Shown: piece by piece, positions 18,651 to 21,683 of the stretch
Layout of the letters: every line of letters starts with the position of its first letter
How positions within the stretch are numbered: the stretch's first letter is position 1
Notes under the pieces: generated by a model
The model's database searches: none
Told to the model about the DNA's origin: nothing
The model's input: the letters and a program-made list of their open reading frames with translations, nothing else
NCBI GenBank assembly: GCA_011523785.1
Contig: WTFW01000093.1
Span: forward strand, 1-44,520
Source: Chloroflexota bacterium
GTDB taxonomy: Bacteria > Chloroflexota > UBA11872
Reading direction: 5' to 3'
DNA: 44,520 bases
Position numbers and translations under genes: made by a program

Positions 18651-19379
18651 TCAGCCTCCGCCGTCGACGGGAACGATGCCGCCGGACATGTAGGTGTTGC
18701 GCTCGCTGGTCAGAAAGGCCACCACTTCGGCCACCTCCTCGGGATCGGCGTAGCGGCCGATCGCCACCGGCGGATTGCGCACGATCTCTTCGGGCACTCG
18801 CGAAACCACCATGTTGGTCAGCGCCCGCCCGGGCAGCACGGCGTTCACCAGCACCCCGCGCCCCGTGAACTCCCGCGCGAACGCCCGGGTGATCGGCACC
18901 ACGCCCGCCTTGCTGACCGCATAGGGAATCAGGGCCGGCGTGCCGTGCCGGGCGCCGGAGGTGAAGTTCACGATGCGTCCCCATCCCCGCTCCGCCATGC
19001 CGCCCACCACCAGGCGAGAGGCCAGGTAGGTCCCCGTCAGGTTGACCGCCAGCACCCGCTCCCACTCATCCAGCGGCGTCTCCAGCACGCTCGCGTCCAC
19101 GCCGATGATCGCTGCGGCGTTGACCAGGATGTCCACCGGGCCAAGAACGTCGCGGGTCGTGGTGTGCGCCCGCTCCAGCGACTCCCGCGAGGCCACGTCC
19201 AAGTGCACCGCCAGGGCCTTCGCGTCACGCCGATGCAGCTCCGCGGTCGTCCGCTCGGCGGCGGCGGCGTCCGAGTCCCAGATCGCAATCGCCCGGCCGT
19301 CCTCCGCCAACCGCAACGCCGCAGCCCGCCCCAACCCATTCGCCCCACCCGTCACCACCGCAACCCGAGGCCGCTCCAT
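18651..19379 (-). CDS. short-chain dehydrogenase/reductase (SDR)
   Basis: Classical SDR of 242 residues from ATG 19379; a GTG at 19388 would add three. It has the cofactor motif TGGANGLG (10-17), NAAAI after strand 4 (87-91), and the catalytic Ser141, Tyr153 and Lys157 (PYAVSKAG). An acidic residue after strand 2 (IWDSD) suggests NAD rather than NADP. The C-terminus ends in the family's SGGIVPVDGGG. It should oxidise a hydroxyl of a sugar or polyol, feeding or following the adjacent isomerase. Tight spacing marks a two-gene operon. Confidence 0.92.
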   Translation of the reverse strand: MERPRVAVVTGGANGLGRAAALRLAEDGRAIAIWDSDAAAAERTTAELHRRDAKALAVHLDVASRESLERAHTTTRDVLGPVDILVNAAAIIGVDASVLETPLDEWERVLAVNLTGTYLASRLVVGGMAERGWGRIVNFTSGARHGTPALIPYAVSKAGVVPITRAFAREFTGRGVLVNAVLPGRALTNMVVSRVPEEIVRNPPVAIGRYADPEEVAEVVAFLTSERNTYMSGGIVPVDGGG

Positions 19380-19391
19380 CACCTCCACCGT

Positions 19392-19621: not shown

Positions 19622-19665
19622 GTGTCCAGACCGGGGATTTCACGTACACGTGTTCGGAGACATGG

Positions 19666-19780
19666 TTTACACATCCCGCGCCAAAGTGGACACATTGCCC
19701 TCAAAACTGGACACATTTCGGCAAAAACTGGACACATCGGGCCGAAAAGTGGACACATCGGCCTGACGGCGTGGACACAT
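19666..19780 (+). repeat. array 1: six TGGACACAT motifs at 21-base spacing
   Basis: The 9-mer TGGACACAT begins at 19687, 19708, 19729, 19750 and 19772, preceded by a variant TTTACACAT at 19666. Steps are 21, 21, 21, 21 and 22 bases. Spacers are about 12 bases and tend to end in AAAA followed by G or C. Two helical turns between motifs would put bound proteins on one face. Resembles multi-site transposase-binding ends of IS21-type elements or an operator array; no protein-coding meaning is assumed. Confidence 0.85.
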
Positions 19781-19883
19781 CCCCGTTATCCCGCGTCCCC
19801 GAAGACCTGTCCTGAGCTTGCCGTGGGAGAGAATCTTGCCCTCCTTCCGTGCCCCACCCCAACCAATCCGAACCGCCGGAAAG

Positions 19884-19998
19884 TGAACACATCGGGCCAA
19901 AAAGTGAACACATTGGCCCGGAAATTGAACACATCCGACGAAAAACTGAACACATTGCCCCCGAAACTGAACACATCGCCCCGATCGAGTGAACACAT
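19884..19998 (+). repeat. array 2: six TGAACACAT motifs at 21-base spacing
   Basis: The 9-mer TGAACACAT begins at 19884, 19905, 19926, 19947, 19968 and 19990, with steps of 21, 21, 21, 21 and 22 bases. The count and the final 22-base step are the same as in array 1, 218 bases upstream, but every unit has A where array 1 has G. Spacers are also similar (for example CGGGCCAAAAAG here, CGGGCCGAAAAG in array 1) but in a different order. Confidence 0.85.
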
Positions 19999-20144
19999 CC
20001 CAAACCGCGCCGACCGCACGCCGCCTCATCCTCTCCCCGTCTTCTCTCACTCCTCGGCCCTCTTCTCTCTCCCTTTCTTTCTTCAATTGAGGCCTCTTCC
20101 AATCGAGGCCCCCCACGCGGCCTTGCAATGTGCACTCACCCGAT

Positions 20145-20161
20145 GTACACTGTGAGTGTAC
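20145..20161. promoter_or_regulatory. GTACACT-GTG-AGTGTAC inverted repeat
   Basis: Perfect 7-base arms around a 3-base centre, typical of a dimeric regulator's operator. It is about 385 bases before the first Gfo/Idh/MocA gene, which is far for an operator of that operon. Function unproven. Confidence 0.3.
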
Positions 20162-20371
20162 CAACTCTCCCCACCCTTGAGTCCCCGTGTCCCTGCCCGC
20201 CGCGTGCTCCCACCGCGCCTTCCCTTCCGGCGCCTTCCCTCGCCCCGCCGGCGTCCTCGCTGACACGCCCCAACCGTTGTCTTTGCGCGGTTTTCCTCCT
20301 CTTCCGCACCCCGCCTCGTCCGCTGATTCGTCCGCCGAAGATCTCGAGCATCCACCAAAAAAATCCGCCAA

Positions 20372-20424
20372 AACCCTCTCTCGCCAGCCCGACCCCTATG
20401 GGGTCGGGCTGGCGAGAGAGGGTT
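20372..20424. repeat. perfect 25-base palindrome with TAT loop
   Basis: Left arm 20372-20396 and right arm 20400-20424 are exact reverse complements (arm begins AACCCTCTCTCGCCAGCC and ends GACCCC), separated by TAT. Such an extended hairpin is either a strong terminator or the tip of a small palindromic element. On the minus strand it is followed by TTGGCGGATTTTTTTGG, which is T-rich; on the plus strand no T-tract follows. It lies 122 bases before the Gfo/Idh/MocA operon. Confidence 0.8.
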
Positions 20425-20546: not shown

Positions 20547-21683
20547 ATGACCGCTGAGACGTTGAGGGCCGTGGTCGTGGGTTGCGGTGTGGGACGCAAC
20601 CACGCCGACGCCTACGTGCATTCCGACGCCGCCGAACTGGTGGCGCTCTGCGATATCGACGAAGTCGCCCTTAACCGGGTTGCCGACGCGAACGACGTCG
20701 AGGCCCGCTACACCGACTTCGAAACCATGCTGCGCGAAGAGCAGCCCGACCTGATCAACATCGCCACCGCCCAGCCGCTGCACGCCGAAATGACCATCCT
20801 GGCGGCCACCCAGTACACGCCCAAGGGCATCCTCTGCGAGAAGGGCATGGCCAACAACATGGGCGAGGCGCGGTCAATGATCGCGGCCTGCGACCGCAAT
20901 GGCGTCAAGCTGGCCATCGGCCACGAGTCGCGCTACCTGACCCAGATCCAGGAAGCCCGCGAGCTGATCACCGGCGGCGCCATCGGCACGGTGCGCCTGG
21001 CGCACGGCTGGTACGAACAGGGCGGCATGCTCAACCAGATGTGCCACGGCTGCGACCGCGCCCTGTTCATCCTCGGCGACCCCGCGCCGCAGTGGGTGAT
21101 GGGCAACATCCAGCGCAACTCCGACCGCTGGGAACGCAGCTGGCCCTGCGAGGAAACGGCGATCGGCATCGTCGGATTCGCCGATGGCTCCCGCCTGATC
21201 CTGGAAGGCGAAACCCCCGGTGGCGCGCAAGTCGAACAGCACCGGCTGACCTTCGTCGGCGACGAAGGCACGCTCTACGTCCGCACCGAAGGCGAAGTCC
21301 GGCCACCGGGTACCGTGCCCGAGGATCCAATTGGCCTTCGGATTCAGCGCGGCGACGGCAGTGTCGAGGAAATCGAGTTTCACAACGACCCCTACCTGGA
21401 CGCCCGCCATCGCGAGATCGACGCCTTCGCCCGCTGGGCCGGCGGCGAACTGGACGGGCACTACCAGGACGCGCATTTCTGCGTGCAAACGCAGGAGATC
21501 CTGATGGCCATCTACGAGTCGGCGCGGACCCACGGCCTGGTGCAACTGCCCATGAAGACCCAGTCCTCGCCGCTGATCGAGATGATCAACAGCGGCGCGT
21601 TGCCGGTCAGCAACCCGGGCTGGCACGACATCCGGCACGGCACCAGAATTGCGCCGGTGGATTACGGCGGAGGGAACTCGTGA
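20547..21683 (+). CDS. Gfo/Idh/MocA family oxidoreductase 1
   Basis: NAD(P)-dependent sugar or cyclitol dehydrogenase of about 378 residues from ATG 20547 (an upstream start at 20529 is possible). The Rossmann domain begins VVVGCGVGRNHADAY. The usual EKP motif reads EKG here (Lys99), the catalytic Lys being kept and the Pro lost. GGMLNQMCHGCDRALF supplies the conserved His167 and Asp. The C-terminal domain ends with ESARTHGLVQLPMKT and WHDIRHGT, blocks shared with the next two genes. First of three tandem paralogs; its stop overlaps the next start as GTGA. Confidence 0.9.
   Translation: MTAETLRAVVVGCGVGRNHADAYVHSDAAELVALCDIDEVALNRVADANDVEARYTDFETMLREEQPDLINIATAQPLHAEMTILAATQYTPKGILCEKGMANNMGEARSMIAACDRNGVKLAIGHESRYLTQIQEARELITGGAIGTVRLAHGWYEQGGMLNQMCHGCDRALFILGDPAPQWVMGNIQRNSDRWERSWPCEETAIGIVGFADGSRLILEGETPGGAQVEQHRLTFVGDEGTLYVRTEGEVRPPGTVPEDPIGLRIQRGDGSVEEIEFHNDPYLDARHREIDAFARWAGGELDGHYQDAHFCVQTQEILMAIYESARTHGLVQLPMKTQSSPLIEMINSGALPVSNPGWHDIRHGTRIAPVDYGGGNS

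Follow-up and report, generated by a model that had tools for sequence, protein, structure and literature searches.

Twin arrays of a nine-base box in the window, our term for the whole stretch of 44,520 nucleotides of Chloroflexota DNA that was analysed, are on balance best read as IS481-type boxes serving as operators in a dispersed, insertion-polymorphic regulatory cassette, a reading that suggests parts of a jumping gene turned into gene switches. The arrays themselves are not an IS481 element, nor are they an IS21 element. The interpretation given by the first-pass annotation survives in part: transposase-type boxes and an operator array are favoured, while the assignment to the IS21 family and the origin by conversion are not.

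Twin arrays and their surroundings in the window

The features on which the analysis draws are listed with their coordinates and strands.

18654..19388, minus strand: upstream divergent gene, short-chain dehydrogenase (Pfam)
19623..19674, plus strand: solitary TT-variant IS481-type end (TGTCCAGACCGG ... GTTCGGAGACATGGTTTACACAT) with no transposase gene attached
19666..19674, plus strand: degenerate first unit TTTACACAT, identified as the IS481 end's inner box and keeping the 21-bp phase of array 1
19687..19780, plus strand: array 1, five exact G-type boxes TGGACACAT at steps of 21, 21, 21 and 22
19884..19998, plus strand: array 2, six exact A-type boxes TGAACACAT at steps of 21, 21, 21, 21 and 22
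20123..20151, plus strand: promoter-like TTGCAA-N17-TACACT, weak, 8/12 by hand count
20152..20371, plus strand: C-rich leader between the promoter-like element and the hairpin, defined by position only
20372..20424, plus strand: hairpin with a perfect 25-bp stem and a 3-base loop
20483..20514, plus strand: the downstream gene's own promoter-like region, kept in cassette-free relatives (L251, L256)
20547..21683, plus strand: downstream gene, Gfo/Idh/MocA-type oxidoreductase (Pfam; orthologues in relatives)

The G-type boxes of array 1 start at 19687, 19708, 19729, 19750 and 19772, and the A-type boxes of array 2 at 19884, 19905, 19926, 19947, 19968 and 19990. Exact TGRACACAT occurs 11 times in the 44,520 bases, every time inside these two arrays, and the longest exact run at step 21 comprises five units versus a maximum of one in 300 composition-matched first-order Markov windows. 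Counting thus bore out the twin arrays that had been noticed at the outset, with their shared unit identity and steps of 21, 21, 21, 21 and 22 in both; the description of six units each is right for array 2, whereas array 1 has five proper units, the supposed first being the inner box of the IS481 end. That end matches the IS481-end pattern exactly at 19652-19674 and resembles the ends of transposase-bearing IS481 copies. Both arrays lie on the plus strand, and the inverted orientation of the ends of an IS481 element was not found. The consensus of 372 step-21 units, drawn from related loci as well as the window, is approximately [TC][CG]GCCCnAAAA[CG]TG[GA]ACACAT, so the spacers are non-random. 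Between the arrays, at about 19806-19830, lies a piece resembling a CCTGTCCTGAGCTTG... repeat that is also present in several related loci.

A Pfam scan of the five ORFs around the arrays identified four as sugar or short-chain oxidoreductases or a xylose-isomerase-like TIM barrel; the fifth had no Pfam match and is antisense to a second Gfo/Idh gene. As the first-pass annotation had stated, no istA or istB gene was found among these five, nor was an IS481 transposase. The window's own assembly, a 3.3-Mb draft in 214 contigs that is 91% complete, gave 0 matches to an IS481-type HTH gene and no HTH_28 match over the cut-off, while 15 of the 19 family genomes contain IS481-type HTH matches.

Distribution and filled and empty sites

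The absence from all relatives that the first-pass annotation had envisaged does not hold: arrays were detected in 10 of the 13 genomes of genus g1, and in 0 of 28 further genomes of the class that were searched (triple-unit pattern, at most 1 mismatch). In the window's genome, the triple-unit pattern at up to 2 mismatches gave 39 matches on 9 contigs, compared with 0 for the reversed control, and G010 alone has 40 matches at up to 1 mismatch. Exact triple-unit stretches, taking one genome per species, numbered 57, of which 52 were in genomes labelled Chloroflexi or Chloroflexota; the rest were three Bacteroidota tandem repeats, L068 in a bin labelled "bacterium", and L069 in a Bryobacterales bin, the last two reflecting either transfer or mis-binning. 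Judging by their names, the source samples are presumably mostly sponges. No plasmid relatives of the array were found, and viral contigs contained no exact triple-unit match.

The cassette comes and goes as a unit, with filled and empty orthologous sites observed at two loci. Between dprA and secD it is present in seven genomes (G000, G009, G010, G012, G013, G015 and G016), where the gap measures 587-965 bp if both genes were found; without it, the gap is 63 bp in G011 and G014 and 216 bp, with no boxes, in G018. At the window locus, arrays are present in G000, G017, G010 and G013, and the site is empty in G009 and G011, which have an SDR-Gfo spacer of about 175 bp in which the promoter region of the downstream gene is kept. 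Only the hairpin end was seen in G014, where the contig ends; the versions in G012 and G015 are altered, with no arrays in the 1.3 kb seen, G018 has no boxes, and the G008 sequence is cut off. Because G009 and G014 are in opposite states at the two loci, gain and loss of the cassette do not simply follow species. Inspection of the cassette edges at filled sites by eye revealed no shared terminal inverted repeat or target duplication.

Promoter-like element, leader and hairpin

The usual order of the cassette is one or more arrays, a promoter-like TTGCC-N17-TACAMT, a leader and finally a perfect hairpin of some 25 bp. Among 59 array loci, counted without the HTH-TerL loci L053, L060, L069 and L091, the promoter-like element matched a loose pattern in 42, was not matched in 11 and was truncated in 6. 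The 42 matches represent 41 distinct strings, 38 of which have exactly 17 bp between TTG... and TA...T; these share features that the pattern did not require, namely an internal GTAATCA-like core (G in 38, T in 35 and C in 37 of 38) and a GTG preceding TACA. A consensus promoter scan did not report the window's own element, and most other cassettes have one nearer to consensus. For the leader, a frame shift between orthologues, judged by eye, argues against coding potential.

Hairpin covariation was assessed after aligning 36 of 39 distinct hairpins, with L071, L165 and L166 left out as short or truncated. Among 35 distinct hairpins, both-sided changes affected 12 of the 25 pairs (79 cells) versus one-sided changes in only 6 cells, the set having required at least 18 paired bases, which biases the paired fraction upward and the both-sided changes less so. 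In this excess of both-sided changes the hairpin resembles a DNA palindrome more than it does an RNA helix that drifts by way of G-U pairs. Searches against Rfam returned only matches below the gathering score. In G010, boxes lie upstream of 8 of the 11 exact hairpins, whereas the 1.1 kb above the other 3 contains none, a fraction taken only from this complete set, since 20 loci were chosen partly by array presence or absence. Hairpin copies are often found where a contig ends or gives way to runs of G or to Ns (for example L225, L248 and L101), and for this reason the hairpin probably breaks short-read assemblies. At L250 and L254, upstream of the Gfo/Idh gene, a different element around AAAACTCTTATTGCGCGCGAGACCCCC stands where the window has the 25-bp hairpin.

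Genes beside the cassette

Downstream ORFs were co-directional with the cassette in 38 of 42 cases by the ORF caller and in 35 of 41 after corrections, while upstream ORFs were split 32 to 25 by the ORF caller. The corrections concerned L067 and L090, whose long ORFs match no family and have an SDR homologue on the other strand; L072:721, where the ABC transporter gene of L075 has its end in convergent orientation; and L080, which was dropped from the strand count because its ORF overlaps the array. By our own grouping, the co-directional cases represent about 16 distinct sites versus three or four convergent ones, the latter comprising SDR genes, an ABC transporter and an O-antigen ligase. 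Genes downstream of the cassette include SecD, M3 peptidase, AMP-binding CoA ligase, UvrA, HisG, cytidylate kinase, nitroreductase and oxidoreductases, and we saw no common pathway among them.

G- and A-type boxes and spacer divergence

Across 92 arrays, 34 had no A-type unit, 38 had no G-type unit and 20 had both, although many of the counted loci are orthologues of one another and the counts are not independent. The mixed arrays mostly consist of one G run adjoining one A run, and the order of A and G blocks varies, with blocks sometimes fused. Neighbouring units share the G/A state in 402 of 425 pairs, compared with about 50% expected. L078, which is near-identical to the window, was left out of the unit, array and promoter statistics and kept in the ORF-caller strand count.

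The first-pass annotation had explained such uniformity by conversion or duplication from one unit, an explanation with which the spacers are at odds, as they are no more alike within an array than between loci. Spacer identity was 6.81 of 12 positions within arrays versus 6.66 between loci overall, and 6.87 versus 6.89, 7.10 versus 6.93 and 6.35 versus 6.42 in three single genomes. Recent duplication or gene conversion, which would have made the spacers alike too, is rejected by this comparison even inside single genomes; selection on the box therefore fits better, and the diagnostic G/A base looks to be under selection. The same 9-mer at step 21 also occurs in L055, L103 and L104 (Prevotellaceae/Bacteroidota) as simple tandem arrays with near-identical spacers; these are either chance or unrelated occurrences and were kept out of the counts.

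IS481 elements of these genomes

Transposases of about 370-381 residues were reached through the HTH of some genes adjacent to arrays, and one of them scored 273 bits with the IS481 model NF033577 (cut-off 224) and 58 bits with the IS21 model (cut-off 160), at variance with the IS21-type ends first suggested. The more general proposal of transposase-type binding sites is upheld at the level of sequence, in that the array box is identical to the IS481 end box. These IS481 ends have two boxes per end, 23 bp apart, in the form TGAACAC, TGGACAC or TTTACAC.

The box variant appears largely to track the recognition helix of the transposase. In counts that ignore the kinship of these mutually related IS481 copies and leave out L148 (SAPT, TT), L131 (SAPT, cut short, TT), L144 and L149, all 10 copies with helix SAPT have TT boxes, all 4 left-end boxes of the two APMT copies are GG, and 9 of the 10 left-end boxes of the five APAT copies are GA, the exception being one GG box in L130 despite APAT. 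L144 and L149, which have APMT, are also exceptions, with a GA outer and a GG inner box. At right ends, 10 of the 13 readable copies agree with the helix, with disagreement in L142, L134 and one box of L136. Shared descent could account for part of this match. L142 and L134/L155 are mosaic IS481 copies whose left and right ends have different box variants.

No array of at least three units bounds a transposase at the loci around IS481-type transposases (L135-L155), among which only L137 has such an array, nearly 3 kb from the transposase. All 10 genomes with arrays have IS481 ends, as do 6 of the 9 without; G011 has IS481 and lacks arrays, and the array-free relatives G002 and G006 have 19 and 21 IS481-end matches.

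Terminase genes with an IS481-type HTH

The terminase large subunit (TerL), identified by a PHROG terminase match (E = 2.3e-23) and a PDB terminase match (E = 2.4e-10), is present in 18 of the 19 family genomes, only four of which (G008, G010, G014 and G015) have a TerL with an N-terminal IS481-type HTH; the fusion thus occurs in 4 of the 10 array-bearing genomes, and L069 is a fifth case. In the G003 copy of TerL, the HTH match begins at residue 35 and there is an internal stop. HTH-bearing TerL genes lie directly under an array at L053, L060, L069, L091 and L156. By comparison, an HTH-less TerL homologue adjoins a portal-like gene in G000 (L269) and G018 (L274).

In 5 of 5 HTH-TerL genes, the distance from the proximal array box to the start codon, which is homologous to the IS481 transposase start, is 46 bp. 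The same 46 bp was found in the nine listed GA/GG-type IS481 copies, and 47-48 bp in the TT type. The second box lies 23 bp further up, as in an IS481 left end, and the step is 21 thereafter. Helix and base correspond here as well: APAT accompanies A arrays at L157 and at L156, the latter with one TGGACGCAT among its units, and SHTT accompanies G arrays at L060, L069 and L091. With this geometry and the helix/base match, the array at HTH-TerL loci takes the place of an IS481 left end. Viral relatives of the TerL part are all distant (23-30% identity, 63 loci). The predicted structure of HTH-TerL is poor (mean pLDDT 36.6), and only residues 20-60 or so reach 62-79, as three helices at the expected HTH position.

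Proposed function and alternatives

If the arrays are operators, the two blocks would provide boxes of two specificities, G and A, at the upstream side of the cassette. Neighbouring boxes, spaced by two helical turns and facing the same side of the DNA, would be occupied by adjacent molecules of an IS481-type HTH protein, either the transposase itself or a relative that has been exapted. The bound protein would control the cassette promoter and through it usually the downstream gene, with the choice of G or A setting which HTH variant reads an array. The arrays most likely serve to control the cassette promoter and, through it, the next gene when that gene is co-directional; we infer binding, regulation and, for this genome, the protein responsible. 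What weighs most against the operator reading is that the search for an IS481-type HTH gene in the draft genome containing the window found none. Moreover, the cassette may not drive the gene in the window, because the gene's own promoter region stays below the hairpin. A wider and more tentative possibility is a genus-wide operator system with two letters, exapted from IS481 boxes, in which matching variants of one transposase HTH family would read G- or A-type arrays that control mobile promoter-hairpin cassettes next to metabolic and housekeeping genes of unrelated function, the HTH having also been fused to a terminase under its own array.

Alternatively, an IS481 transposase docking on the arrays could move the cassette in trans as a non-autonomous mobile element, any effects on genes being a by-product. 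The cassette's presence or absence at two orthologous loci in patterns differing among genomes, the identity of its boxes to IS481 end boxes, and the solitary IS481 end abutting array 1 in the window would agree with this. However, the diverged spacers, the shared direction of the two blocks, unlike the inverted ends of a DDE element, the edges, where inspection by eye recognised neither a shared terminal inverted repeat nor a target duplication, and the co-directional lean (35 of 41) make it unlikely. We give still less weight to the arrays as decoys that titrate IS481 transposase, thereby damping transposition or protecting a neighbouring promoter: boxes are numerous in a genome (40 triple-unit matches in G010 at up to 1 mismatch) and all 10 array-bearing genomes have IS481 ends, yet the coupling to a promoter-like element and hairpin and the steady G/A blocks would be left without explanation, and the array-free G002 and G006 have many IS481 ends (19 and 21).

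A role in packaging, in which the HTH fused to TerL recognises the array before its own gene as a pac site and packaging of host DNA begins at the dispersed arrays, would account for arrays directly before HTH-bearing TerL genes with helix and base matching, and for the portal gene next to HTH-less TerL in G000 and G018. We consider it very improbable, given that the fusion occurs in only 4 of 10 array-bearing genomes, that viral contigs have no exact triple-unit match, and that promoter and hairpin are not accounted for. Least credible of all is that the arrays are the ends of an IS21-type element, or that a private duplication in tandem was made uniform by conversion. IS21 is known to have multiple repeats at each end, according to PMC10122671, but the matching transposase is IS481; as for private duplication, the spacers show no recent duplication, the arrays recur at many loci and in many species, and the Bacteroidota tandem arrays with their near-identical spacers are what duplication looks like.

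Comparison with known systems

The arrays share with IS481 ends the box and its G, A and TT variants, and, at HTH-TerL genes, the 46-bp and 23-bp geometry. In contrast to the two boxes at 23 bp of an IS481 end, they have about six boxes at 21 bp and no transposase, and their two blocks, in direct orientation, are coupled to a promoter-like element and a hairpin. IS21 ends (L1/L2 and R1/R2) similarly have several transposase-bound repeats in a row, two per end according to PMC10122671. The transposase found here, however, is of another family, and the five adjacent ORFs scanned included no istA or istB. Like iterons and multi-site operators, which are direct repeats at about two helical turns, the arrays have regular direct boxes; unlike iterons, they occur at many loci on many contigs beside diverse genes, with no replication gene among the named neighbours. 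REPIN, BOX, MITE and "mobile promoters" are non-coding, multi-copy, hairpin-bearing and present or absent at orthologous sites, all of which applies to the cassette, but unlike them it has ordered operator-like blocks, a two-letter code and a promoter-like element. A literature search, judged by titles and the openings of abstracts, returned nothing on such arrays.

Most documented cases of transposons exapted as regulators are, to our knowledge, eukaryotic. In the present bacterial genus the boxes occur side by side with the related element and the HTH variants, with an apparent recognition code. With a hairpin that seems to break metagenome assemblies, this dispersed non-coding cassette may be under-counted.
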